The position numbers were made by a program, and so were the translations under genes. The notes below the pieces were generated by a model. That model ran no database searches and was not told where the DNA came from. It worked only from the letters and a program-made list of their open reading frames with translations. From positions 1 through 64,000 of IMG/VR virus record IMGVR_UViG_3300027793_000084: DNA of 64,000 nucleotides; one strand, written 5' to 3'. The DNA comes from a virus. This document shows positions 12,835-63,644 of the stretch, one piece after another. Numbering within the stretch: the first letter of the stretch is position 1; the number at the start of each line of letters is the position of its first letter.

Positions 12835-13389
12835 TTAATTTTTTACAATAATAAACGAGGCTAGTTTTTCTTTAGTTGTAATATAATATCGAAATTTATT
12901 TTTGTTAGTAAAGCTTTTAACAGCACTGACTACTCCTGGGAATATGTCTTGATTGTAGTCATGACCACATATCAGCCCATTATTTTTAGTTACCCTTAGT
13001 GCTTCTTCTAATTCAACAATTAGATGATCATAGGTATGAATAGTATCAATATAGATAAAATCAAAATAACTATCTTCTTTAGACTTTAAAAAAGTTATAG
13101 AGTCTATCTTAGAAATGGTAACATTGGTGTTATGTGAATATTTTCTTAGTGCGTGATCAAATAAATAGTCACCATTAAATGTTTGAATATTTTCTCCATT
13201 TATATCTCCAGATCCGACTATACCACTAAAAGTATCTACCAAATAAAACTTCTGAAATTTTCCTGATTCTATAAATAAATCAGAATACTCACACAAAAAC
13301 ACGCCTAGTTCACAACCAATACTTGTAGGTTGGATAAGGTTTATTAAGTGTGATCTGGTTGGTATTTCAGTACTATTTTCTAATATCAT
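12835..13389 (-). CDS. Class I SAM-dependent methyltransferase (CmcI/Methyltransf_24-like)
   Basis: 184 residues. CELGVFLCEYSD is motif I (SAM loop, here GVF in place of GxG), FYLVDTFSG carries the acidic residue of motif II, and FDFIYIDTIHTYDHLIVELE is the family-typical metal/SAM segment, followed by NNGLICGHDYN. Such enzymes O-methylate sugars or small molecules; with three glycosyltransferases nearby a sugar cap is plausible. Overlaps the macro-domain gene by 17 bases. Confidence 0.7.
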   Translation of the reverse strand: MILENSTEIPTRSHLINLIQPTSIGCELGVFLCEYSDLFIESGKFQKFYLVDTFSGIVGSGDINGENIQTFNGDYLFDHALRKYSHNTNVTISKIDSITFLKSKEDSYFDFIYIDTIHTYDHLIVELEEALRVTKNNGLICGHDYNQDIFPGVVSAVKSFTNKNKFRYYITTKEKLASFIIVKN

Positions 13390-13897
13390 ATACTACAACC
13401 CTATGGTCTTCCCAAATATCTAGTATCAAGTCCTGAATAAAATTCCAGTTTCCTCCAGCAAGTCCACAACCAAATTTTGGACAATGAATTTGTACTTTAT
13501 TGTCGTTGTTAAAACTTAGTAATAAATACTCACTCACTCTATACATGGTTTTTGCTAAAGCACCATAATGTAGCGGTCTTCTGTTATTTTTAGAAATTGT
13601 ACCATTTTGGGCAATCATATTTGCAAAGATTAATTTATGACCATATTTAGGATCTTTCTCAACTTCCACGAACTGAACATAACCAAGCACATTTTTAGAT
13701 CCTAGAAGATGATAATTTTCTTTGACTATCGGATAGTGCTTGGCAACACCAGCAGCAAATCCAGCCCCAAAAGCATTAACATTGTTGCAAACATGAGGAA
13801 CCACAATACTAGAACCATTATATTCATTGTATATGTGTTCCTGTACAAAATTGAATAAATTGCCGTATATTGTTGGTAGTTTACTTAGAGTTTTCAT
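13373..13897 (-). CDS. Macro domain protein (ADP-ribose binding/hydrolysing)
   Basis: 174 residues: essentially one macro domain. VVPHVCNNVNAFGAGFAAGV (31-50) gives the substrate loop with Asn-Asn and Gly-Ala-Gly; HYGALAKTMYRVSEYLLL and VQIHCPKFGCGLAGGNWNFI supply the second and third binding loops. The pattern resembles Poa1p-like ADP-ribose-1''-phosphatases. Roles could be recycling of RNA-ligation by-products (the phage encodes ligases) or removal of ADP-ribose marks set by host defence; both are inference. Confidence 0.75.
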   Translation of the reverse strand: MKTLSKLPTIYGNLFNFVQEHIYNEYNGSSIVVPHVCNNVNAFGAGFAAGVAKHYPIVKENYHLLGSKNVLGYVQFVEVEKDPKYGHKLIFANMIAQNGTISKNNRRPLHYGALAKTMYRVSEYLLLSFNNDNKVQIHCPKFGCGLAGGNWNFIQDLILDIWEDHRVVVYDIRK

Positions 13898-19865: not shown

Positions 19866-22526
19866 CTACTTAATCAAACTACTCAACTGAATCTTAAACA
19901 ATTCTATCATACTATCATCCATACTCACAATCCAAGTGTTGTCTCTACTATAGTTATCTGTACTATTAGTAATAGGATTCTTGGATGTAATATTTCTGAT
20001 ACCAATCCGGTTGGGAGTGGTAGCCATAATATACTTGATTGTCGGGTTGCTGTCAACCTGTTCTTTAATAATTTTTCTAAGTTCACTAGCCTTTGGCAGA
20101 CTATGGCTACTCTTATTATCAGAAGAGATTAGTTTAGCCCAATTATCACCAGAACCATCCCTATATAGAGTATGCTTTAGCCAATTGTTAAGTTGGTTGA
20201 AAGCAACATTAGTTTTCTTAACCAATTCAGCATCAACACTATCAATACCAATATCAGCAAACAACTTATTCATATGATCATAATAATCGCTTTTCTTGAA
20301 GCCATTGATATTGTAAGTATGATGATGTACTGTCTCAGCAAAAAACTCCATAACTAGATAAGAATCAACAACCTTGACCAGACTATTGTTTTTAATATAT
20401 TTGGCATAGTCTAGTCCAAAAAAGTTTAGAATCGTGTAGCAAAATCGTCCAAGAACATCATACTGATGATAGTAATTATAACTGGACGATTCACGATCTG
20501 AGAACTCTTTTTTGCAAAACTCTACGATACTATTAAAGCATGATACTGATTCAAACTTTGGTTTGAAAACATTTTGTAGTTTATCTTTGAAGAAATCGTT
20601 GAATGTAATCATGTTACGATCACCTTCTTCCACCATCTTCTTAGCAACACTACTCTTGATAGCATAAATCTTGGTCTTACCAAAAACTTCCTTGATAAAA
20701 TCTGCTAACGAAGGTTCGTTAATCATACTGTGCAAATCACAAATTTCTGGAAATCCCTCGTTCTGATTTACAGCATATCTAGTAATTGGCAAGTAAACAA
20801 TAGTATCACTATCTTCAAAAGATTCAAGTTCGTCTTGATCTAAAGTCTTTAGCAAAGAGGCGTCGTTATAGTCAACAAGTAGAGTGCCACTATTTTTAGA
20901 TGCTCCGTAAATAAAGAATACATCTTGATCACTAACGCTTCCCTGACTAGAACGATTAGATGCTTTTCTAGGAGAATTGCTCTTGATCAAGTCCTTGAAC
21001 TCAGAAATATTCTTTATATTTTCCTCACCAACATCCTTGATTAGAGACTCAAAACCCTTGTTTGATTCGTTAATATTCTTAGAATCGATCATCAAATAAG
21101 CATAGCAGTCATTCTCGTTGCAATAACGAATAGCAATCTTTTTGGCAGTTTCTTCGCTCTTAACATCGCACACAAAGAATACTAGTTTACCAGTCTTACG
21201 ACTACCGTAATAATAATCACCCTTGCCAGACAACGTAGCCAAGTGAATATGATTTGTCAGATAAACCATACGCCTAGACCTATAGCCAGCGGTTCTAAAA
21301 TTAATAGCGTACAGATTCTTGTTGGCTCCAAACTTGTACTCTAGATCATCACCGCTGTTAATATCATGCTCTACTCCCTTGCTGTCCTTCCACTTAGCAC
21401 CAACTCCCCAACCACCAGCAAGATCATTAAGGGTATAATAACTCTGTATTGCTTCAATCTTAGTTTTAGCACTAGCAATCTTTTTGCTGAATTCCTCTTT
21501 CATCTCCATGTAGATTTCTTGAGTCTTGTTACGCAGGGTACGGATAACTTCCTTAGTATACTGTAGACCCTCACGCGAAACATCCATCTCAAGTTGACCG
21601 ATACCAAAATCAAGTTCAAGATAAAGATTCTGATTCGTAATCTCTGAAACAAAACTACGCCAGTTATCAATATCTGCCTTGCCAAATGTTCTATTCCACT
21701 TTTGAATATGATCTGGTTGCTCAGACTTTTGCTCTCCGATCAATTGTGACACAACTACTGGATAAGCAATATTACCCATGAGAGCCACAATACCGCTGTC
21801 AATATGATTATGAGCATTAGGAAAATGGCGAGAGTCATTACTAAATCGACAAACTCTCCAACCTTCGCCACTAATCACAATATTCTTATGACTATAACTA
21901 TGATCATTAATATAAGAGATAGTACCACCTTCAATGATGGGCTTCATCTTAAAGTAATGAAAAATCCTCATGGACTTTAGACTAAACTCATGAAAATCGT
22001 GCTGCTTAACAGCAAAACTAATCTCTAGTCCATTAGGCTCATTTGTCTTAGAAATATCGAACAAATTGTGTGTGGGAACACCAGCATCATCAATAGACAT
22101 TACATAAGTATACTTTTTACCATTGAAATAAGAACTAGTTGTAAAACTCTTAGTATAGGCAAAAGGACTCTTAGAACCTAGACCAAGACAACCAACAAAA
22201 TCATTACTATCATTCTTGTTGCTTGCACCATAAGTGGTATATAGGTTCTCCATATCCTCTTGACTAAGACCAGTACCATAATCACGCACTGTAAAATTAG
22301 GATTAGCAGCAGTTGGCAACGTCACCTTAAAAGGATTCTTATTGCCCGCTGCAACATGAGAATCGTAGGCATTAGTAGACAGTTCACGAATAGGTGCTTG
22401 AATTTTGTCAGAATAAAGAGAGTCCGACAGAATCTTAAACATTTTACTCGTTTGTGCAATCGTAAAACCAGACGCACTACGAACACCAGAACTATGAGTA
22501 TCAATAACCCGATCTGCCAACTTCAT
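19866..22526 (-). CDS. rIIA: rIIA-like protein with GHKL ATPase domain
   Basis: 886 residues. The N-terminus is a GHKL fold: APIRELSTNAYDSHVAAGNK (N box Asn), FTVRDYGTGLSQEDM (DxGxG), and GLGLGSKSPFAYTKSFT (G-rich lid). It continues with rIIA-type regions including DVSREGLQYTKEVIRTLRNK near 310-330. T4 rIIA is about 725 residues, so this is longer. The ATG at 22524-22526 is 43 bases from a class A promoter, and the downstream rIIB-like gene completes the pair. Likely membrane-associated in infection, as inferred for T4 rII. Confidence 0.85.
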   Translation of the reverse strand: MKLADRVIDTHSSGVRSASGFTIAQTSKMFKILSDSLYSDKIQAPIRELSTNAYDSHVAAGNKNPFKVTLPTAANPNFTVRDYGTGLSQEDMENLYTTYGASNKNDSNDFVGCLGLGSKSPFAYTKSFTTSSYFNGKKYTYVMSIDDAGVPTHNLFDISKTNEPNGLEISFAVKQHDFHEFSLKSMRIFHYFKMKPIIEGGTISYINDHSYSHKNIVISGEGWRVCRFSNDSRHFPNAHNHIDSGIVALMGNIAYPVVVSQLIGEQKSEQPDHIQKWNRTFGKADIDNWRSFVSEITNQNLYLELDFGIGQLEMDVSREGLQYTKEVIRTLRNKTQEIYMEMKEEFSKKIASAKTKIEAIQSYYTLNDLAGGWGVGAKWKDSKGVEHDINSGDDLEYKFGANKNLYAINFRTAGYRSRRMVYLTNHIHLATLSGKGDYYYGSRKTGKLVFFVCDVKSEETAKKIAIRYCNENDCYAYLMIDSKNINESNKGFESLIKDVGEENIKNISEFKDLIKSNSPRKASNRSSQGSVSDQDVFFIYGASKNSGTLLVDYNDASLLKTLDQDELESFEDSDTIVYLPITRYAVNQNEGFPEICDLHSMINEPSLADFIKEVFGKTKIYAIKSSVAKKMVEEGDRNMITFNDFFKDKLQNVFKPKFESVSCFNSIVEFCKKEFSDRESSSYNYYHQYDVLGRFCYTILNFFGLDYAKYIKNNSLVKVVDSYLVMEFFAETVHHHTYNINGFKKSDYYDHMNKLFADIGIDSVDAELVKKTNVAFNQLNNWLKHTLYRDGSGDNWAKLISSDNKSSHSLPKASELRKIIKEQVDSNPTIKYIMATTPNRIGIRNITSKNPITNSTDNYSRDNTWIVSMDDSMIELFKIQLSSLIK

Positions 22527-24848: not shown

Positions 24849-24885
24849 AAGATTTCTTCCTTAGTGAGTATAATAGACAAATAAA

Positions 24886-24958
24886 TAGGAGCGGCGGGAT
24901 TCGAACCCGCACTTTAAGGTTCTTAAGACCTTTGTCTCTGCCGTTGGACTACGCTCCC
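24886..24958 (-). tRNA. trnL: tRNA-Leu (TAA)
   Basis: Acceptor GGGAGCG/CGCTCCT (with one G-T at the end), D arm GTC/GAC, anticodon stem AAGGT/ACCTT with loop CTTAAGA (anticodon TAA), T arm GCGGG-TTCGAAT-CCCGC. A73 fits Leu, but the variable loop is short (type I), unlike normal tRNA-Leu. CCA is not encoded. It would read UUA, frequent in these AT-rich genes. Confidence 0.85.
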
Positions 24959-24965
24959 ATATAAA

Positions 24966-27787: not shown

Positions 27788-28921
27788 TTATCTATCTAAT
27801 TTCAGACAATTATTTCCATCAACCCTAGCAAAGTTAGGAGTACCTTTACCAGTTAATCCATTATAGAGAAACTCCACATTTTGACCGATCCACTTTTTTC
27901 TTTCTTTAAGGAATTGGGCCGCTTCTTCATAAGACCCCTTAAAACTAGCATCAAAAATCTTTCCGTTCCAATCCAAGGTAATAGTCTTTCCTGTACCACT
28001 CCAATTACCAGTTCCTTCTTTAATATCGACGATAATCGCTTCCTCTGAATCTTCCGGCTTAACCTTCAAAAGATTCTTACTTCTTTTATGTTCATAGCCC
28101 ATATTAGAATATCTGAGCATGACACCCTCATGACCATCATCAATAAAACTAGAATAGTGCTTGTCTAGATCTGATTCAGAATTAATGCTGAAGTCTTTGA
28201 CAGGCATAACATATTTATACGAGTTTACTATGTTAGAATCAATCCACTTCTTACGTTCCTTATAGCAACAGTCTTTGCTAATTCCAAAATCGTATCCATC
28301 ATAAACATAATATCTAACAAGTTTTTCGCTACGATCCAAATCATCCTGAGAAATATTAACGGTGCGGCGAATTAACTTGCTAATTTCATTAAGTTGTTGA
28401 CGAAGATCATTATTAAACAACTCACCGTCCAAAACCGCATCGGGATACATTTTAAAGAAAGAAGCCAAAGATTTTTCAATATGGGGGCAAGACAAATACT
28501 TTTCACCTTTTCTGGTAAATAGACCACTCTTGGTAGCCACACATCTCATGCCATTAAACTTGCACTGAAGAATATATTCTCCTTCAGAAAAATCAATCTT
28601 ATTACTATAGTCCTTATACAACTTAGCCAACATAGGTTCGATATAACTCATATCGTCCACGCTATTAATATCGTCAAAATACCCCGTCTTTTTTTGCTTT
28701 TTATATTTAGCCTCAATTTCTTTAGTGGCCTGTTCAACAGAGGATGTTTCGTTTTTCTTTCCCTGATTCTTACCTTCTGCAACAGTCCATTCGCTAGTAA
28801 CCTGTTCGCCATTTTGTAGACCGGCGATTGTACGATACTTAGAACCATTTTGCTCCATCTTCCAAATGCGAATATTACCCAAACTGTCTCTGGAATAAAG
28901 GGTTTCGTAATGCTTATTCAT
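27788..28921 (-). CDS. ATP-dependent DNA ligase with N-terminal WGR-like domain
   Basis: 377 residues. The first 70 residues (ETLYSRDSLGNIRIWKMEQN...SEWTVAEGKN) resemble a WGR module. Then motif I QCKFNGMRC with Lys121 (KxNG in place of KxDG, as in several phage ligases), motif III VLDGELF, IV DDGHEGVMLRY, V LLKVKPED, and an OB domain to the C-terminus. It seals nicks using ATP. A class A promoter is 27-55 bases upstream. Likely essential for Okazaki-fragment joining. Confidence 0.85.
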   Translation of the reverse strand: MNKHYETLYSRDSLGNIRIWKMEQNGSKYRTIAGLQNGEQVTSEWTVAEGKNQGKKNETSSVEQATKEIEAKYKKQKKTGYFDDINSVDDMSYIEPMLAKLYKDYSNKIDFSEGEYILQCKFNGMRCVATKSGLFTRKGEKYLSCPHIEKSLASFFKMYPDAVLDGELFNNDLRQQLNEISKLIRRTVNISQDDLDRSEKLVRYYVYDGYDFGISKDCCYKERKKWIDSNIVNSYKYVMPVKDFSINSESDLDKHYSSFIDDGHEGVMLRYSNMGYEHKRSKNLLKVKPEDSEEAIIVDIKEGTGNWSGTGKTITLDWNGKIFDASFKGSYEEAAQFLKERKKWIGQNVEFLYNGLTGKGTPNFARVDGNNCLKLDR

Positions 28922-29328: not shown

Positions 29329-29355
29329 TATTCATTTCATAATCACATTATAAAG

Positions 29356-29709
29356 TGGAGGCGTCGGCGGCGAAGCCGAGTGTTGCGATAATTTTAATTA
29401 CATATTCTACAAGTTTATTTTGTTCATGAGTTAAATGGAATTATAGAACAAACAAGATTCTTTCCATCTTACCAACTTCTCTTAACCTACAACCCGTTGG
29501 ATATTGTAAGTGCAGAGGGATTTAACAGCAGACTTTTGATTCCTACCCTCATTCGGTATCGCAGTCTGTTACTGCCCGTTTTTAATTAGGCAGCAAGGGC
29601 TAACTGATTTGTGCCAGTTAAAGCATTTGGTAGACTTTTAAAGTGGCCCGTCCACCAACCACTACTTGCTAATATAATCTCTGTTATCCAATCGATACAT
29701 TTCGCCCCC
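29356..29709 (-). ncRNA. ssrA: tmRNA (transfer-messenger RNA)
   Basis: 354 nt. The 5' end GGGGGCG (29703-29709) pairs with the 3' end CGCCTCC followed by A73 (29356-29363), with one G-U, forming the acceptor stem; the 3' end also carries a T-arm-like TCGGC-TTCGCC-GCCGA. A resume frame ends at 29586-29588 with tag residues ALTGTNQLALAA then TAA (GCT as first codon, 29622-29624, is a guess; the LALAA end is firm). PK1: GGTGGAC/GTCTACC interlocked with GTGG/CCAC before the tag. PK2: AACAG...CTGTT and AGACT/AGTCT interlocked with GAGGG/CCCTC after the tag. It would rescue stalled ribosomes and tag products for ClpXP-like proteases. No smpB is seen here. Confidence 0.88.
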
Positions 29710-29712
29710 CAA

Positions 29713-29937
29713 TTACTTAATTAATACACTTTTAGTGTTATCTTGATTAAATTCTAGACGCTTTATTTCTTGTTTAATCTTCATTAGTTCATATTCACTA
29801 GTTCCACAACGAGTAAGGGTTAAAGATGATTCTAGAACCTGAATTTTGTTGTAGAGATGAATATTATAGCCAAAAGACAAACAAAACAAACCGACTAAAA
29901 TTGTATAAAATGGAATATTAGGATTTCTGTGAGTCAT
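29713..29937 (-). CDS. Small membrane protein with coiled-coil tail
   Basis: 74 residues. Membrane helix at about 9-27 (FYTILVGLFCLSFGYNIH), then a helical tail YELMKIKQEIKRLEFNQDN. Its stop codon lies 4 bases upstream of the tmRNA 5' end, so both probably share a transcript. Function unknown. Confidence 0.55.
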   Translation of the reverse strand: MTHRNPNIPFYTILVGLFCLSFGYNIHLYNKIQVLESSLTLTRCGTSEYELMKIKQEIKRLEFNQDNTKSVLIK

Positions 29938-29960
29938 AAAATTTCCTTATTGAATCGAAA

Positions 29961-29974
29961 TGGTGTATAATAAC
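29961..29974 (+). promoter_or_regulatory. Class B box overlapping a minus-strand class A-like promoter
   Basis: Plus strand TGGTGTATAATAAC, 31-44 nt before the HNH start codon. On the minus strand TTGTTA (29986-29991), 16 bp and TATACA (29964-29969) form a weaker promoter for the small membrane protein and tmRNA, so two opposite promoters share these bases. Confidence 0.5.
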
Positions 29975-30004
29975 TTATCAAGTCATAACAAGTGGAGTTC
30001 GGCT

Positions 30005-30517
30005 ATGAATAACTGTGCTAATTGTTCAAAAGAAACTAGTAATCCTAAATTTTGTTGTATATCATGTGGGGTGTCTTATAATAATCAGTTAAAACCTAAA
30101 AGGCAAAAACAAACTAGATATTTTAAATGCTTACATTGTAAGAAAAAAACTGAATTTAATACTAATGCTCCAAGAAAGTATTGCTCACAAACCTGTAGAA
30201 TAACTCATAAAAGAGAAAAATCAGATAGTTTGATTGAGGCAAAGGGTAGTTTTGGAAATGGTCATTATCATAATGTAACTATCAGAAAATATTTCATGCG
30301 TAAATATGGAAATAATTGTATGATTTGCGGACAGTCAGGAGATGATTGGAATGGAAAACCCATCACCCTTATTGTGGATCATATTGATGGTAAATCGAAC
30401 AATAATAAATTAGACAATCTCCGTATTGTTTGTCCTAATTGTGATTGTCAATTACCAACATACAAAGCAAAAAATAAAGGGAATAGTTCTAGAAAATATT
30501 TCATTGTTCAAAAATAA
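30005..30517 (+). CDS. Free-standing HNH endonuclease with zinc-ribbon N-terminus
   Basis: 170 residues from ATG 30005 (GGAG 8 nt upstream; the longer frame is rejected). N-terminal zinc pairs CANCSKE..CCISC and CLHCKKK..CSQTC; C-terminal HNH CMICGQSGDDWNGKPITLIV then DHIDGKSNNNKLDNLRIVCP. Plus-strand island between tRNA-Ile (ends 1 base away) and the promoter of the membrane-protein gene. Probably a homing endonuclease. Confidence 0.75.
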   Translation: MNNCANCSKETSNPKFCCISCGVSYNNQLKPKRQKQTRYFKCLHCKKKTEFNTNAPRKYCSQTCRITHKREKSDSLIEAKGSFGNGHYHNVTIRKYFMRKYGNNCMICGQSGDDWNGKPITLIVDHIDGKSNNNKLDNLRIVCPNCDCQLPTYKAKNKGNSSRKYFIVQK

Positions 30518-30518
30518 G

Positions 30519-30591
30519 TAAGGCGTGAGAGAATCGAACTCCCATGTCCAGTTAATAAGACTGGCGTCTTTTACCATTAGACGAACGCCTC
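30519..30591 (-). tRNA. trnI: tRNA-Ile (TAT), unusual loop
   Basis: Acceptor GAGGCGT/ACGCCTT, D arm GTCT-AATGGTAAA-AGAC, anticodon stem CCAGT/ACTGG with loop CTTATTA, T arm GGGAG-TTCGATT-CTCTC. Read normally the anticodon is TAT (Ile, AUA), but position 37 is T rather than a purine. A class A promoter lies 14 bases upstream. Confidence 0.7.
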
Positions 30592-30604: not shown

Positions 30605-30633
30605 ATTCTACACTATCGACCAACACCTGTCAA
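30605..30633 (-). promoter_or_regulatory. Class A promoter for tRNA-Ile
   Basis: TTGACA (30628-30633), 17-bp spacer with CGATA, TAGAAT (30605-30610), overlapping the 3' end of the SpoU gene; minus strand. Confidence 0.8.
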
Positions 30634-31170
30634 CTCTTTAGTTTTGCTCTCAACAAAATTTCTGTATACACCCATAACTATCCCACTAGTTGTTCCAACA
30701 TTTAGTGATCGTACACTTCCATAATTAGGAATAGTTAGAATAATATTTGCTCTGTCTAGAATAATATTTGATAATCCTTTGTTTTCTTCTCCAAATATAA
30801 ATATGGGTTGCTTATTATCCTCAAAGTTATATTCAAAAAGATTCACTGTTTTATCAGAATACTCTGGAATATTATTTTCAATAGCAATAATGCTTCGACC
30901 ACTTAGTTGTAGCAAAAAAGATTCTTCATCTTTGTGATGATACATAGGAGTATAGTGGTGAGTGCCTACGCTTCCTCTTTTATCCCACTTCTTTTTACCA
31001 ACATAATGCACACTTCTAAAGCCAAAGAAATTTGCATTACGCACCATTGTGCTAAGATTAAAATCACCACCAATATTAATCATAGCCACACTAGCAGGAA
31101 TACTTTTGCTATGGCAATAATGACCAATATCCTTAATACTAAGATTTTTTAAACTATCCAGTACGTTCAT
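30613..31170 (-). CDS. SpoU/TrmH-family tRNA or rRNA 2'-O-methyltransferase
   Basis: 185 residues, compact SPOUT domain without an added substrate domain. Motif 1: NIGGDFNLSTMVRNANFFG (32-50, Asn and Arg of NxR type). Motif 2: IFIFGEENKGLS. Motif 3: IPNYGSVRSLNVGTTSGIVM, the knotted SAM site. With tRNA genes and a tmRNA in the genome, modifying phage or host tRNA is reasonable, but the target is not readable. Confidence 0.8.
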   Translation of the reverse strand: MNVLDSLKNLSIKDIGHYCHSKSIPASVAMINIGGDFNLSTMVRNANFFGFRSVHYVGKKKWDKRGSVGTHHYTPMYHHKDEESFLLQLSGRSIIAIENNIPEYSDKTVNLFEYNFEDNKQPIFIFGEENKGLSNIILDRANIILTIPNYGSVRSLNVGTTSGIVMGVYRNFVESKTKELTGVGR

Positions 31171-33379: not shown

Positions 33380-33913
33380 ATGAAGAAAAAATGTAATACT
33401 TGTGGTAAAAATAAATTACTAGATTGTTTTCATATAAAAAAAGACGGTAAATTTGGTAGAAATCATAAATGCAAAGATTGTAGAAAAATATATTCTCAGA
33501 AATATTATTTAGTAAATAAAGATAGATTAGATCAACAACATAAAGAATATAATTATAATCATAGAGAACAACAGGCTAAAATTTTTAGAGAAAAATACCA
33601 TTCAGATATAGAATTTAAAATCAAACATACTCTAAGACGTAGATTGCGTCATGCAATAAAAGGTAATATAAAAATTGAATCCGCTAAAAAATTACTAGGA
33701 TGCGATATAATCTTTTTTAAGTCATACATAGAAAAACAGTTTTTAAAAGGTATGAGTTGGAATAATCATGGTGAGTGGCATATTGACCATATAAAACCAT
33801 GTGATAGTTTTGATTTATCGGATACTAAGCAGCAAAAAGAGTGTTTTCATTATTCTAATCTTAGACCATTATGGGCAAAAGACAATTTAAAAAAATCTAA
33901 TAAACTTATCTAG
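33380..33913 (+). CDS. Free-standing HNH endonuclease (paralogue 1)
   Basis: 177 residues. N-terminal zinc pairs CNTCGKNKLLDC..CKDC, a Lys/Arg-rich linker, and the HNH end GEWHIDHIKPCDSFDLSD with CFHYSNLRPLWAKDNLKKSN. Same C-terminal architecture as the plus-strand genes at 35102 and 39638. Its last 8 bases overlap the 3' end of the next minus-strand gene. Probable homing endonuclease. Confidence 0.75.
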   Translation: MKKKCNTCGKNKLLDCFHIKKDGKFGRNHKCKDCRKIYSQKYYLVNKDRLDQQHKEYNYNHREQQAKIFREKYHSDIEFKIKHTLRRRLRHAIKGNIKIESAKKLLGCDIIFFKSYIEKQFLKGMSWNNHGEWHIDHIKPCDSFDLSDTKQQKECFHYSNLRPLWAKDNLKKSNKLI

Positions 33914-35035: not shown

Positions 35036-35060
35036 TGTTCAAATCCTACATAAATGAAAT

Positions 35061-35073
35061 TTGGTGTACTATA
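35061..35073 (+). promoter_or_regulatory. Class B box (TTGGTGTACTATA)
   Basis: Plus strand, 29 nt before the HNH ATG at 35102; the box ends on the first base of the minus-strand class A -10. Confidence 0.5.
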
Positions 35074-35100
35074 TGATAGCATAGGAATAGGAGGAGTCAA
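35073..35100 (-). promoter_or_regulatory. Class A promoter for the 49-residue gene
   Basis: TTGACT (35095-35100), 16-bp spacer, TATCAT (35073-35078), minus strand. The bases just 5' of the HNH ATG serve as its ribosome site and as this -35. Confidence 0.7.
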
Positions 35101-35101
35101 G

Positions 35102-35755
35102 ATGAAAAAATGTCATATGTGTCTATTAGAAAAAGAAGATAATGAATTTAATAAAAGAAGATGCAATCAGTGTAAATTATGCGAAAAAAAGTGGAAAAAA
35201 GAATGGCATCAAAGAAATAAAAAAAGATTAAATAAAAAGGCAAAAATATATAATAAAAAAAATTCAGAAAAAATAAAAGCAAATAGAAAAATATACTATA
35301 TAAAAAATAAAGAACATATAGATACTCAAAATAAATTAAATAGAGAAAAAAATAGAGAATATTTTAACAAGAAATCAAGAGAATATTATCATAAAAATAA
35401 AAAACATATTCATAAAAAACAAAAGTTATACTTATCTAGTAATAAAGAAGCAAAAATTAGACATAATTTGAGAGTAAGAATTAATCATGTTTTACAAGGC
35501 AAAATAAAATCTGGTGGAACTATTGAATTGTTGGGGTGTACAGCAGAATTTTTGGCTATGCACATCGAACAACAGTTTAAAGATGGCATGAGTTGGGAAA
35601 ATTATGGTAGAAATGGATGGCATATAGATCATATAATTCCTTGTTCTAGTTTTGATTTAACTGATCCAGAACAACAGAGAAAATGTTTCCATTACTCTAA
35701 TCTGCAACCACTATGGGCTGAAGATAATTTGCGTAAGTCTGATAAGATTCTATAA
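35102..35755 (+). CDS. Free-standing HNH endonuclease (paralogue 2)
   Basis: 217 residues from ATG 35102 with AGGAGG upstream. CHMCLLEKEDNEFNKRRCNQ with C at the next positions forms the zinc knuckle, followed by a long Lys/Asn-rich linker of YxxKNK repeats and the HNH core NGWHIDHIIPCSSFDLTDPE then CFHYSNLQPLWAEDNLRKSD. The 3' end overlaps the uvsE 3' end by 59 bases. Likely homing. Confidence 0.75.
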   Translation: MKKCHMCLLEKEDNEFNKRRCNQCKLCEKKWKKEWHQRNKKRLNKKAKIYNKKNSEKIKANRKIYYIKNKEHIDTQNKLNREKNREYFNKKSREYYHKNKKHIHKKQKLYLSSNKEAKIRHNLRVRINHVLQGKIKSGGTIELLGCTAEFLAMHIEQQFKDGMSWENYGRNGWHIDHIIPCSSFDLTDPEQQRKCFHYSNLQPLWAEDNLRKSDKIL

Positions 35756-39564: not shown

Positions 39565-39593
39565 ATTATATCAGACGCCCAAGCAATTGTCAA
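39565..39593 (-). promoter_or_regulatory. Class A promoter
   Basis: TTGACA (39588-39593), 17-bp spacer, TATAAT (39565-39570), minus strand, for paralogue A. Confidence 0.8.
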
Positions 39594-39637
39594 CTACCCT
39601 TGATGTTGTTTGGGTTGTCTTGTTTATGCGTATAAAA

Positions 39638-40360
39638 ATGAAAAAGAAAATATGTAGTAAATGTAAGATTAAAAAATCTATCTTAAGATTTTCTAAAGAC
39701 AAAAGAAAAAAATCTGGATTGTGTTGTCAATGTAAAGATTGTCGTAAAATATATAACGATCAAAATAAAAACAAAAGAATAAAATACTATGAAGACCATA
39801 AAGAAACTATATTATTTAATAATCAAATCTATAGAGAACTCAAGAAGCATGAATTAAAAAAATATCGTGAGAAAAATAAAACTAGACGCAAAGAACAAAA
39901 TAAAAAATGGAAAAATAAAAATAAAGAATTACTAAAAGAATATAATAAAAAATGGAAAATAAATAATAAAAATAAATATCACTCAAATTTTGTAAAATGG
40001 AAAAATAATAATTTAGAACATTTAAGAAGATATAGACAAAATAGAAGAAAACAAATCAATATTAAGTTAATAGATAATATTAGAAGAAGAATTAATATGG
40101 CAATTAAAAGTAAAAAGAATCATAGTATTGAATATCTTGGAATTGATATAGAATCATATAAAAAATACTTACAACAATTATTTGATAGCCGTATGAACTG
40201 GAATAACTACGGAATAAAGGGTTGGCACATAGACCACATAATCCCAATATCGTCTGCTAAAAATGAAGAAGAATTAATAAAATTATTTCATTATACCAAT
40301 ACTCAACCACTATGGGCAGAAGATAATCTCAAAAAAAGTAATAAAATATTACGTCCATAA
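39638..40360 (+). CDS. Free-standing HNH endonuclease (paralogue 3)
   Basis: 240 residues from ATG 39638. CSKCKIKKSI then CCQCKDCRKIYNDQ zinc knuckle, a long Lys/Asn-rich linker with many KNKE/NKKW repeats, and the HNH core KGWHIDHIIPISSAKNEEEL then FHYTNTQPLWAEDNLKKSNK. The Cys of the third HNH position seen in paralogues 1-2 is replaced. Ends overlapping the 3' end of the 221-residue gene by 12 bases. Confidence 0.7.
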   Translation: MKKKICSKCKIKKSILRFSKDKRKKSGLCCQCKDCRKIYNDQNKNKRIKYYEDHKETILFNNQIYRELKKHELKKYREKNKTRRKEQNKKWKNKNKELLKEYNKKWKINNKNKYHSNFVKWKNNNLEHLRRYRQNRRKQINIKLIDNIRRRINMAIKSKKNHSIEYLGIDIESYKKYLQQLFDSRMNWNNYGIKGWHIDHIIPISSAKNEEELIKLFHYTNTQPLWAEDNLKKSNKILRP

Positions 40361-46465: not shown

Positions 46466-47488
46466 TTATTCTTTCAATAAAAACTGATTATTAATCGCTT
46501 TAAAACTAATAGTTCCACCAATGTCTCGTATTACTATTCCTTCACGTTCTTGAGAACTTTTAGCAGAGGGAAAGTGGTCTATATATTTGCCTTGGGCCAG
46601 TTCTAGTAGATCGTCCACAGTATAGTCGAAACTTTCACCTTTTTCAAGTACCGGCACAAACTTCAATCCTAATCTCTCTACAATATGCAAACTCTCATCT
46701 AGACATAATCTACTATTTGTAGAGATATCTACAACATTAAATACATATAAATCTGCTATAGGTAAACCTAGAGGATTTTTTTGCACACCTGGGGCAACAA
46801 CCTCTCCTTGTAAAGCAATTTGTCTACCTTCATTCCACAAATCCCTAAGTCCTTGCTCAATATTATATCTATCGGCTATTTTCCAAAAACTATGGTTGTC
46901 ACTTTTTTTGTAACTATAATTTCTTCCACAAACATGAAAAGTTTCATCTTTGGGATCAATTAAAAATGTGCTGCTTGTGCCATCTAGTTTCAACGAAATA
47001 TAGTAGGGTTGTCCATTAAGACTTTGTATAAATTGATATTCGTCGTTTAATTGAACTCTTATTTCATCTGTTTTACTAATAGGCCATGAAAATGACTTAG
47101 CATCCCCTATAATGGCGGCGGGAATAGGAGGTTCGTATTTCTCCACGCCTAGTATATCTGTAACATCATCACCAATGCTAAACCTTGCTAGATTAGGAAA
47201 CACAGTTATTGGAAGAGCCAAACCCTGACTAAGTTGTTTGCGGAGTTTTATTGTTTTGAGCCTAAATTTCTTAAAAGATTCGTTCCAACAGCCCTTCCTC
47301 AAAAATTCAAATTCTTGAATCTCTGGTAGTAATGAGTCTATTTCAAAGTAGACACACCTATCTCCAGTTTTAAACTCACCCTTTTTAGATACGCACTCCC
47401 ACCCTAAAATGCCTACAGTTTCTATGCTGTCAGCATCTAATATAGGTTTTACGTATTTAATTTGTTGTATACTAGCTAATTTTCTCAT
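46466..47488 (-). CDS. RNA ligase of the DraRnl (Rnl5) type
   Basis: 340 residues. N-terminal OB-like domain (MRKLASIQQIKYVKPILDAD, WECVSKKGEFKTGDRCVYFE), then a nucleotidyltransferase core: motif I ISLKLDGTSS with Lys167, motif III VFNVVDI, motif IV EGIVIRD, motif V ISFKAINNQ. The order OB-then-transferase distinguishes the Deinococcus DraRnl family from T4 Rnl1/2. It seals nicked RNA, maybe repairing tRNA cut by host defences. Substrate unproven. Confidence 0.75.
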   Translation of the reverse strand: MRKLASIQQIKYVKPILDADSIETVGILGWECVSKKGEFKTGDRCVYFEIDSLLPEIQEFEFLRKGCWNESFKKFRLKTIKLRKQLSQGLALPITVFPNLARFSIGDDVTDILGVEKYEPPIPAAIIGDAKSFSWPISKTDEIRVQLNDEYQFIQSLNGQPYYISLKLDGTSSTFLIDPKDETFHVCGRNYSYKKSDNHSFWKIADRYNIEQGLRDLWNEGRQIALQGEVVAPGVQKNPLGLPIADLYVFNVVDISTNSRLCLDESLHIVERLGLKFVPVLEKGESFDYTVDDLLELAQGKYIDHFPSAKSSQEREGIVIRDIGGTISFKAINNQFLLKE

Positions 47489-47966
47489 GATTATCGTATG
47501 GTCTTATTACCCACCCTATTTTGAGCAAATCCAGTCTAACCTCTTCTGTTACAAAACTTTCACCAACATACCCATCACTCTTCTCTGGATCAGATCCTAT
47601 CCCGGAACAATACCAGTCTATATAGTCTCCTTTTTGTATCATATCCGCTATAATACCACCGGCGTGTCTCCAAGAGCAAGTCCACTCCTTGTCTCCATAA
47701 AAAAATCTGTTATTACACAATGCCGCATATAAATTTTGACAGTATACCGTACTGTTTCTGGCTTTATTTAGGATATCTTCACTAGACCGCAAATCATATT
47801 CTAAATTAAAATTTTTGTCTTCTGTTTCTTCTCTGGCTTGTGCTTCGTCAAGTATAGTCATCATATTATCGTACAGTTCTTGGGTTGTTTTACCTTCTTC
47901 TAATTGTTTTTTCCATATTCCACGATAAAACGATCCTCTTTCTGGGCTGCTAGAATATTCTTTCAT
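47472..47966 (-). CDS. Paralogue B of the Trp/Cys-rich phage family
   Basis: 164 residues from ATG 47964-47966, AGGAG upstream. The C-terminal 110 residues (NLYAALCNNRFFYGDKEWTC, YIDWYCSGIGSDPEKSDGY, VRLDLLKIGWVIRPYD) correspond to paralogue A at 39147-39512; the N-terminal 50 residues are extra. Duplicate copies 8 kb apart. Function unknown. Confidence 0.55.
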   Translation of the reverse strand: MKEYSSSPERGSFYRGIWKKQLEEGKTTQELYDNMMTILDEAQAREETEDKNFNLEYDLRSSEDILNKARNSTVYCQNLYAALCNNRFFYGDKEWTCSWRHAGGIIADMIQKGDYIDWYCSGIGSDPEKSDGYVGESFVTEEVRLDLLKIGWVIRPYDNHEKIS

Positions 47967-48205
47967 ATGCCCCACTCCTGCTCTAATTTTGACAAGGCTG
48001 ATTCTACGGTAGAGTTATTATAAAAACAATCATAATCAGAATTTTTAAGTTCATTATATTTCTCCGGCCAAATATCGTATAAAACATTCATTACCGTTTG
48101 ACCATATCTCCATTGATTAGCAGCAGAAATTTTACCTTTAGATGTAGATGCTTGATGCTCCAGAAATGTATCGTCTACCTTTTTTATAAACTGTTCAAAT
48201 GTCAT
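47963..48205 (-). CDS. Hypothetical small protein
   Basis: 80 residues: MTFEQFIKKVDDTFLEHQAS, ANQWRYGQTVMNVLYDIWPE, SALSKLEQEWGI. A familiar short phage pattern (YGQTVMNVLYD). Overlaps both neighbours. Confidence 0.5.
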   Translation of the reverse strand: MTFEQFIKKVDDTFLEHQASTSKGKISAANQWRYGQTVMNVLYDIWPEKYNELKNSDYDCFYNNSTVESALSKLEQEWGI

Positions 48206-48498
48206 GTTAGTATTTCCGATGTTCCTTCAAGTATAGTTTGTCTAACATTTCTCGTCATATTGATAAGAAGAATGTGGTTTTTTATAAAACTTTCACCCTT
48301 TTCTTTAGCGATAACCCCAATCAAATTTCTGGCCCAGCCATTAGTTATGCTACGAACATCCTTGAAGTCAAGTTCCACATTAAACCCAAAGTCTATTTCT
48401 TCTAGTATACTTTGTCTTAATTCGGTGGCTTTTTTGGTACTAGATAAATCAGTACCATACATTTCTTTGATTTCGTAGTAAATTAGTGGGCCTTTCAT
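48202..48498 (-). CDS. STAS-like protein (DUF4325 type)
   Basis: 98 residues: SILEEIDFGFNVELDFKDVR, SITNGWARNLIGVIAKEKGE, SFIKNHILLINMTRNVRQTI. This helix-strand order fits the DUF4325/STAS-like family, usually signalling or anti-anti-sigma-type folds beside kinases. Here it is alone; role in transcription or partner binding is speculative. Confidence 0.5.
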   Translation of the reverse strand: MKGPLIYYEIKEMYGTDLSSTKKATELRQSILEEIDFGFNVELDFKDVRSITNGWARNLIGVIAKEKGESFIKNHILLINMTRNVRQTILEGTSEILT

Positions 48499-58127: not shown

Positions 58128-58670
58128 ATGAAAAAATGTGGCAAATGTAAGCATGAATATTCGATAGATAATTTTTATAAGGACTCTCATAAAAAAGATG
58201 GTTTATCTTGGGATTGTAAAGAATGTGCTAAAAAAAAGCATAAAAGATATCGCTTAAAAAGCGATATTCCAAAACAATGTGCTAAAAAATGGAGGCAGAA
58301 AAATCCATTTAAAAAAAACGAATATAATAAACAACTCTATAATAAAGTTAAATTATTTAAACAAATTTATTTACAAAGAAATCCATGCGATTGTGGAGTT
58401 TGTGATATAGAATGTTTGGATTATCACCATATAGATCAAAAAGCTTTAGAAAAAAGAGTACATTCTATACATACATTTAAAAAATCTATAGAAGAAATGA
58501 TTAAATGTGTTGTTGTATGCGCTAATTGTCACAGAAAAATTCATGCTGGAACTAAAACTCTTAGTAAAAAACCACCTACTAAACAAGAACTATATAGTTT
58601 AGTGTTAGAATTATTTCCAAATCTAAAAACAGAAATCGCCGCCCAATTTTCATTGAGCGACGATCTCTAG
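58128..58670 (+). CDS. Free-standing HNH endonuclease (zinc knuckle)
   Basis: 180 residues. CGKCKHEYSIDNFYKDSHKK and WDCKECAKKKHKRYRLKS at the N-terminus; HNH core CLDYHHIDQKALEKRVHSIH, EEMIKCVVVCANCHRKIHAG, Lys-rich C-terminus. A distinct subtype from the other plus-strand endonucleases. Intergenic and plus-strand; likely mobile. Confidence 0.7.
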   Translation: MKKCGKCKHEYSIDNFYKDSHKKDGLSWDCKECAKKKHKRYRLKSDIPKQCAKKWRQKNPFKKNEYNKQLYNKVKLFKQIYLQRNPCDCGVCDIECLDYHHIDQKALEKRVHSIHTFKKSIEEMIKCVVVCANCHRKIHAGTKTLSKKPPTKQELYSLVLELFPNLKTEIAAQFSLSDDL

Positions 58671-60606: not shown

Positions 60607-60677
60607 TAGAGGCGGAAGGTAACGCTCCTTCTTCTAGAGATTAAAAGTCTCTTACATCACTTTAATGTTTCGCCTCC
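60607..60677 (-). tRNA. trnK: tRNA-Lys (TTT), divergent loops
   Basis: Acceptor GGAGGCG/CGCCTCT, D stem ACAT/ATGT, anticodon stem AGAGA/TCTCT with loop CTTTTAA (anticodon TTT), T stem GAAGG/CCTTC. But the D loop is TAAAGTG and the T loop AGCGTTA, both lacking conserved bases (no GG, no TTCRA). Promoter begins 9 bases upstream, so it is a primary transcript. Confidence 0.65.
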
Positions 60678-60734: not shown

Positions 60735-60772
60735 GCTGACTATCTCCACGACCGCCAAATCCGTAGGATCGG
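60735..60772. repeat. Dispersed repeat R (copy 4)
   Basis: GCTGACTATCTCCAC..GCCAAATCCGTAGGATCGG abutting the 3' end of tRNA-Ser. Confidence 0.5.
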
Positions 60773-60856
60773 CTGGAACAGGATTCGAACCTGTGGACGG
60801 TTTTAAGCGTCACATCTTTAGCAAAGATGCGCATTAGACCACTCTGCCATCCAGCC
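60770..60856 (-). tRNA. trnS: tRNA-Ser (GCT)
   Basis: 87 nt. Acceptor GGCTGGA/TCCAGCC, anticodon stem CATCT/AGATG with loop TTGCTAA (anticodon GCT), long variable arm, T arm ACAGG-TTCGAAT-CCTGT. Normal type II serine tRNA. Confidence 0.9.
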
Positions 60857-60927
60857 CAAAGGCGGGTGGAATTGCACCACCATCTACGGTTTTGGAGACC
60901 GTCGTTCTACTATTGAACTACGCCAAT
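60857..60927 (-). tRNA. trnW: tRNA-Trp (CCA), imperfect acceptor
   Basis: D arm GTTC/GAAC, anticodon stem ACGGT/ACCGT with loop CTCCAAA (anticodon CCA), T arm GGTGG/CCACC with loop TGCAATT. Acceptor pairs ATTGGCG with CGCCTTT show T-T mismatches at positions 2 and 3, and the T loop lacks T55. Possibly needs editing or is degenerate. Confidence 0.7.
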
Positions 60928-60931
60928 AAAG

Positions 60932-61012
60932 CACCAGAGGCTGGACTCGAACCAGCAGATCTTTCGACGGTTGATTAACAATCAACTGCGTTTACCATTC
61001 CGCCACTCTGGT
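60932..61012 (-). tRNA. trnN: tRNA-Asn (GTT), long variable arm
   Basis: 81 nt. Acceptor ACCAGAG/CTCTGGT, D arm GCGGAATGGTAAACGC, anticodon stem GTTGA/TCAAC with loop TTGTTAA (GTT), variable arm of about 13 nt, T arm GCTGG-TTCGAGT-CCAGC. The longer variable arm is unusual for Asn. Confidence 0.8.
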
Positions 61013-61652: not shown

Positions 61653-61682
61653 TTCGAATTTTTAAAGTTCTTTTTTTATTAA

Positions 61683-61754
61683 TTCCGGAGTCTGGGTACG
61701 ATCCAGAAATAAATGGACCAAAGCCATTTGTGATACCAGTTTCACCACTCCGGA
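61683..61754 (-). tRNA. trnQ: tRNA-Gln (TTG)
   Basis: Acceptor TCCGGAG/CTCCGGA, D arm GTGA-AACTGGTA-TCAC, anticodon stem AATGG/CCATT with loop CTTTGGT (anticodon TTG), T stem TCTGG/CCAGA, loop ATCGTAC. Directly adjoins tRNA-Thr without spacer. Confidence 0.8.
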
Positions 61755-61826
61755 AGCCCACAGAAGGAATCGAACCCTCATCCGATGATCACAAATCAAC
61801 TGTAATAGCCATTATACTATGCGGGC
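61755..61826 (-). tRNA. trnT: tRNA-Thr (TGT), tentative
   Basis: Acceptor GCCCGCA/TGTGGGC, anticodon stem GTTGA/TCATC (one T-T mismatch) with loop TTTGTGA, read as anticodon TGT (Thr); a shifted His reading does not pair. T arm GAGGG-TTCGATT-CCTTC. Promoter 10 bases upstream. Confidence 0.65.
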
Positions 61827-63555: not shown

Positions 63556-63566
63556 AAAATTAAAAT

Positions 63567-63637
63567 AGGCCCGCCGGGACTCAAACCCAGAATAACTCTT
63601 TAGAAGAGAGTTGTGATATTCAGTTTCACTACGGGCC
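63567..63637 (-). tRNA. trnR: tRNA-Arg (TCT)
   Basis: Acceptor GGCCCGT/GCGGGCC (one T-G), D stem GTGA/TCAC overlapping positions 9-25, anticodon stem ACTCT/AGAGT with loop CTTCTAA (anticodon TCT), T arm CTGGG-TTTGAGT-CCCGG. Reads AGA, frequent in this genome. Confidence 0.8.
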
Positions 63638-63644
63638 CATAAAG

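Follow-up and report, generated by a model that had tools for sequence, protein, structure and literature searches.

What would an RNA ligase of the Deinococcus type do for a phage, and does it belong together with the tRNA genes and the tmRNA of the same genome? The question is raised by a gene in the window, by which we mean the whole stretch of DNA analysed here; it spans 64,000 bases of a virus record 67,151 bases long and has a GC content of 33.5%. The original prediction saw in this gene a DraRnl-type ligase and in its company of tRNAs, tmRNA and SpoU methyltransferase a plausible system of RNA repair against anticodon nucleases. To our knowledge, the natural job of DraRnl-type ligases has not been established.

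Results

The gene is intact, with an ATG start and no internal stops, and the assignment of its product to the DraRnl/NgrRnl (Rnl5) family of RNA ligases is supported, as far as sequence can tell. Namely, Pfam places the OB domain (PF21189, the PHA02142 OB-fold domain) ahead of the nucleotidyltransferase domain, in which the KLDG motif lies, so that the architecture read from the letters alone is borne out (Table 1). The further claim, that the protein is of the Deinococcus type rather than of the T4 Rnl1 or Rnl2 type, also held: the NCBIfam model TIGR02306 (RNA_lig_DRB0094) matches residues 4-339 with 160.4 bits against a curated cut-off of 151.15, phrog_968, a family named RNA ligase, matches at 8.9e-73, and among the 12 matches listed in a search of PDB sequences the closest solved relative is the Naegleria gruberi RNA ligase 5cot (E 3.4e-60, residues 1-338), T4 Rnl1 and T4 Rnl2 being absent from those 12. 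In an alignment with 11-12 homologues, K167, D169, G170 and S172 are invariant, as are Q227-G228-E229, E316-G317 and F329-K330; these residues make up what we take to be motifs I, IIIa, IV and V, all of which are intact. With DraRnl of Deinococcus radiodurans (DRB0094) the protein thus shares the full-length TIGR02306 match, the OB-first order and the same ligase core, although it is a predicted, phage-encoded enzyme that scores only about 9 bits above the cut-off of that model. With NgrRnl (PDB 5cot, Rnl5) it shares ligase motifs that align along residues 1-338, NgrRnl being a eukaryotic enzyme and ours a phage protein, and the match to this solved structure already settles the fold to be expected.

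Table 1. Features of the window; coordinates of the two ligase domains were derived from residue numbers.
Feature	Position	Strand	Evidence or remark
DraRnl/Rnl5-type ATP-dependent RNA ligase (predicted)	46466..47488	-	340 aa; TIGR02306, PF21189 + PF09414, phrog_968, 5cot
N-terminal OB-fold domain, residues 4-94	47207..47479	-	PF21189, E 8.7e-35
Nucleotidyltransferase (ligase) domain, residues 161-330	46499..47008	-	PF09414 RNA_ligase, E 1e-20
Motif I KLDG, residues 167-170; K167 expected adenylated lysine	46979..46990	-	
ORF of 167 aa, function unassigned	47472..47975	-	overlaps ligase start, operon-like
STAS-like DUF4325 gene	48202..48498	-	PF14213, 9.7e-12
tmRNA, tag GTNQLALAA	29353..29709	-	RF00023, 71.6 bits (gathering score 47), E 8.1e-28
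SpoU/TrmH-type RNA methyltransferase	30613..31170	-	PF00588, E 8.6e-22
tRNA-Leu(TAA)	24885..24959	-	ARAGORN + Rfam
tRNA-Ile(TAT)	30518..30591	-	ARAGORN + Rfam
tRNA-Ser(GCT), tRNA-Trp(CCA), tRNA-Asn(GTT)	60770..61012	-	ARAGORN + Rfam
tRNA-Gln(TTG), tRNA-Thr(TGT)	61682..61826	-	ARAGORN + Rfam
tRNA-Arg(TCT)	63565..63639	-	ARAGORN + Rfam
Possible ninth tRNA, Lys(TTT)	60607..60677	-	RF00005, 41.4 bits, permissive Rfam scan only

How much weight an absent gene can carry depends on the extent of the record. Relatives of the large gene at 19866-22526, which from its sequence we take to be rIIA-like, occur on contigs as long as 238 kb, and the record is therefore probably a 67-kb fragment of a much larger genome. 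Consequently, failure to find a gene in it is weak evidence, and a missing partner of the ligase proves nothing.

Two genes near the ligase are of note. The ORF of unassigned function has no Pfam or PHROG match, and its 81% homologue in the related locus L003 sits at a different place from the ligase flank. The STAS-like gene, found in 7 of 25 records, is the most constant neighbour of the ligase within its clade, and in three related loci (L122, L128, L209) it abuts an RtcB gene.

The tRNAs, the tmRNA and the SpoU methyltransferase that the original prediction had named are all present. ARAGORN reports eight tRNA genes and Rfam likewise eight, and the methyltransferase gene adjoins tRNA-Ile and lies near the tmRNA. 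The latter was missed by ARAGORN and by Rfam at default filters, and it was a permissive Rfam scan of the stretch aligned to the tmRNAs of relatives (those of closer related contigs align at 81-87% identity to about 29351-29741) that recovered it, overturning the reading that the window has no tmRNA. It is a single piece of 357 nt with both tRNA-like ends in place, which rules out a tmRNA split by an endonuclease gene. By eye, its aligned T loop has 6 nt (TTCGCC) instead of the usual 7; an assembly error is ruled out as the cause, for the 28-mer around this loop recurs in three other viral contigs, one of them a 48-kb contig with a 100%-identical ligase. The T loop of the tmRNA in one related record (G008) also looks 6 nt long. 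As for the candidate ninth tRNA, it has a cloverleaf-like fold and an atypical T loop, and by eye its anticodon loop reads CTTTTAA.

Relatives of the ligase occur in other phages. With tblastn they were found in 325 of 50,697 phage records, many of them annotated as RNA ligase, and 316 of the 325 align over 80% or more of the query, with every identity under 60%; given also that phrog_968 is named RNA ligase, this kind of enzyme is already known in phages, and on its own the gene is ordinary. The phage ligases of phrog_968, such as those of Microcystis phage Mic1, Sinorhizobium phage phiM12 and Aeromonas phage 25, belong to the same family, are 25-39% identical to ours in the phage records listed and have neighbours that vary by phage. 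Among environmental sequences, if one sets aside a contig that matches at 100% and stems from the same phage, the nearest relative reaches 84% identity. Within the lineage, we compared 24 related records, many of them probable fragments, of which 23 came from a search with the rIIA-like gene and were picked for size, and one (G001) was picked for its ligase. The ligase occurs in 1 of the 23 (G006), or in 2 of 24 with G001 included, as against a tmRNA over the cut-off in 19 of the 23 and 20 of the 24. The ligase is thus accessory in this phage lineage, and it is not tied to the tmRNA.

What surrounds such ligases elsewhere was surveyed at 91 viral loci (L002 and L003 among them), whose ligases form 56 clusters at 80%. 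By plain clustering, three families turn up most often as neighbours: Metallophos (PF00149, calcineurin-like; MPE below), cREC_REC (PF20274) and RNA_lig_T4_1 (PF09511, Rnl1-type). The neighbours also include HAD_SAK_2, a domain described as 'Swiss Army Knife RNA repair'. At those 64 loci where both flanks are long enough (46 clusters), compared with those of an RtcB subfamily (48 clusters), MPE lies within 4 kb in 15 of 46 clusters against 4 of 48 (p 0.0044), cREC in 11 of 46 against 1 of 48 (p 0.0016) and an Rnl1-type ligase in 10 of 46 against 0 of 48 (p 0.00045), p values that are descriptive, since the families were chosen and tested on the same loci. The contrast between near and far positions inside the same loci is weak: with raw p values over 11 families, it is 18 v 5 for MPE (p 0.021), 15 v 4 clusters for cREC (p 0.031), 13 v 6 clusters for the Rnl1-type ligase (p 0.19), 7 v 6 for the kinase (p 0.66) and 2 v 1 for RtcB (p 0.58). 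Loci of ThyX, taken as a control, collapsed to 4 clusters, too few for a comparison. In the window itself, MPE, cREC, Rnl1-type ligase, kinase, HAD and RtcB were not found. Two Pfam-less families were also seen near viral DraRnl genes, in 7 and 6 clusters at distances up to 5 kb and in 0 at 5-10 kb (examples are L200:8241-8819 and L134:12577-13269).

Among the closest relatives, RtcB stands out. It was found in the same two of 24 related records as the ligase (G001, G006). In both, the RtcB gene precedes the ligase gene in the same orientation and is separated from it by small ORFs, and a metallophosphoesterase gene follows downstream. Taking 80% clusters 0 and 1 as the clade of our ligase, 11 loci have enough upstream sequence to be informative, and in five of them (L003, L122, L202, L128, L209) a same-strand RtcB is present within 3 kb upstream, the other six being L123, L124, L125, L203, L205 and L206; a further, short locus (L204) holds a cut RtcB. 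There are fewer independent cases than these counts suggest, as L122 equals L202 in its ligase, and L124, L125 and L205 look alike. The record of our phage, 67 kb in all, has no match to RtcB (PF01139): it keeps the flanking genes of the clade, and the interval is occupied by two small ORFs together with the STAS-like gene. Viewed from the other side, a DraRnl lies within 4 kb of 4 of the 48 RtcB-subfamily clusters. This divergent subfamily (about 455 aa, PF01139 at 113-128 bits, 80 loci kept, for example L003:7900-9264 and L121:6270-7637) is seen in many viral contigs; the RtcB catalytic motifs, as we assign them, are complete in 65 of 80 members and readable in the G001 protein. A phage with 24 tRNAs, a tmRNA and rtcB is described in PMC5648845.

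A kinase of the T4 Pnkp type (AAA_33) was not found over the cut-off in the 67,151-base record, itself a probable fragment, where the sole weak match is the P-loop of the RuvB gene, and no match at E 0.001 was obtained in the 24 related records, many of which are probably fragments too. Named phages that carry a DraRnl-type ligase were examined in 17 records, one of them partial and the other 16 labelled as a complete genome or a whole assembly. AAA_33 passes its cut-off in 10 of the 17 and RtcB occurs in 3, so that a kinase alongside such a ligase is common and not universal. Seven of the 10 kinase matches fall in short frames (135-195 aa) and may represent nucleotide kinases of another kind.

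Discussion

In our judgement, the ligase probably mends tRNA, or structured RNA of other kinds, after cleavage by the host's defence nucleases, within a loose set of tools for the upkeep of translation. Its enzymatic activity, substrate and target nuclease are those we infer for it. Namely, K167 would take AMP from ATP, the AMP would be passed on to a broken RNA at its 5'-phosphate end, and an adjacent 3'-OH would then seal the break; during infection, the targets would be tRNAs or other structured RNAs cleaved by host defence nucleases, and the ligase would be one tool of the set alongside the tRNAs, the SpoU methyltransferase and the tmRNA of the phage. Breaks with 3'-OH and 5'-phosphate ends could be sealed at once. 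Those with cyclic-phosphate ends would need a second enzyme. The closest relatives may have it in their linked genes for RtcB and phosphoesterase; in the fragment analysed here none was found. The suggestion that RNA repair is plausible gains from the neighbours of the ligase in related viruses, that is, MPE, cREC, Rnl1-type ligase, HAD_SAK and RtcB. What is more, Iyer and colleagues (PMC7824862) have proposed that phage ATP-grasp RNA ligases repair tRNA, assisted by kinases and phosphoesterases as well as cRec and HAD proteins, and they name BcepSaruman as carrying RtcB, Rnl1 and Rnl2; further sources cited here are PMC9503650, PMC9931718, PMC6052137 and PMC5587285. Several observations count against this role: none of these neighbours was found in the window itself, the ligase is rare in its lineage, the near-far contrast is weak, and the preference of DraRnl for duplex nicks does not match a break in an anticodon loop.

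A kinase is probably not strictly needed for such repair, as some tRNA-cutting defences would yield ends that a DraRnl-type ligase can use directly. In particular, AriB of the PARIS system is described (PMC12409363) as cleaving tRNA to leave a 3'-OH, a 5'-phosphate being expected. Since ends of this type would be sealable without a kinase, a missing partner does not refute RNA repair. With Pnkp and Rnl1 of T4, our ligase would share the role of undoing the cutting of tRNA by host defence, but T4 Rnl1 belongs to a different ligase family, and a counterpart of the T4 Pnkp, judged by AAA_33 over the cut-off, was not found in our record or its 24 relatives, many of them probable fragments. One phage, Aeromonas phage 25, encodes both a DraRnl-type ligase and a T4-type rnlA.

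Would another use of the enzyme explain these observations equally well? DraRnl prefers nicks in duplexes, unlike the break in an anticodon loop, and both DraRnl and NgrRnl seal duplex nicks whose 3'-OH strand is RNA. The ligase might hence serve DNA repair instead of tRNA repair, mending duplex nicks with an RNA 3'-OH end in ribonucleotide-containing or RNA-primed DNA, and the window does encode UvdE, an Ogg-like glycosylase, RuvB and a separate ATP-dependent DNA ligase. However, about 10 kb or more separate these genes from the ligase, and the neighbours of its viral relatives are RNA-end enzymes, so that we regard this alternative as unlikely. Processing of the phage's own tmRNA and tRNAs, for which one could cite the presence of all three in one genome, strikes us as very improbable: the tmRNA is far more widespread among the 24 relatives than the ligase, and it is in one piece with both of its ends.

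The linkage to RtcB allows a more specific reading, in which DraRnl and RtcB would together seal both kinds of break without any kinase, our phage having lost or moved its RtcB. This would fit the five informative clade loci, the co-occurrence of RtcB with the ligase in just the two ligase-bearing relatives, the lack of an AAA_33 match in all 24 and the catalytic motifs of the RtcB subfamily. It is nevertheless distinctly unlikely in our estimation, because one of the two co-occurring records was itself picked for having a ligase, the record of our phage and six of the 11 clade loci show no RtcB nearby, and the association is sparse both among the RtcB-subfamily clusters and among the named phages. 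As a statement about the clade, we rather doubtfully propose a kinase-free island, beside the tmRNA, of a divergent RtcB (for cyclic-phosphate and 5'-OH ends), a DraRnl (for 3'-OH and 5'-phosphate ends) and the STAS-like gene, of which the window would be a derived, RtcB-less form. Returning to the resealing of defence-cut RNA as the preferred role, the wealth of RNA-end enzymes around viral DraRnl genes and, in this clade, the linkage to RtcB suggest a concrete and testable role for DraRnl, with or without a kinase.

Several genes farther from the ligase deserve mention. The ATP-dependent DNA ligase (phrog_114; 27788-28921, minus strand) appears by eye to begin with a WGR-type domain of about 90 residues, and the gene at 13373-13897 (minus strand) matches phrog_335, 'phosphatase', at 1.2e-22, has no Pfam match at 0.01 and looks macro-domain-like. 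In Deinococcus, genes that we take to be similar are grouped together; as partners of our ligase both were dropped, being about 18-33 kb distant. The record has no match to an HD domain. Finally, candidate HNH-type endonuclease ORFs, recognized by eye on the plus strand (29960-30517, 33380-33913, 35054-35755, 39587-40360 and 58128-58670), are scattered through a genome that is otherwise on the minus strand, and one of them separates the tmRNA from tRNA-Ile.
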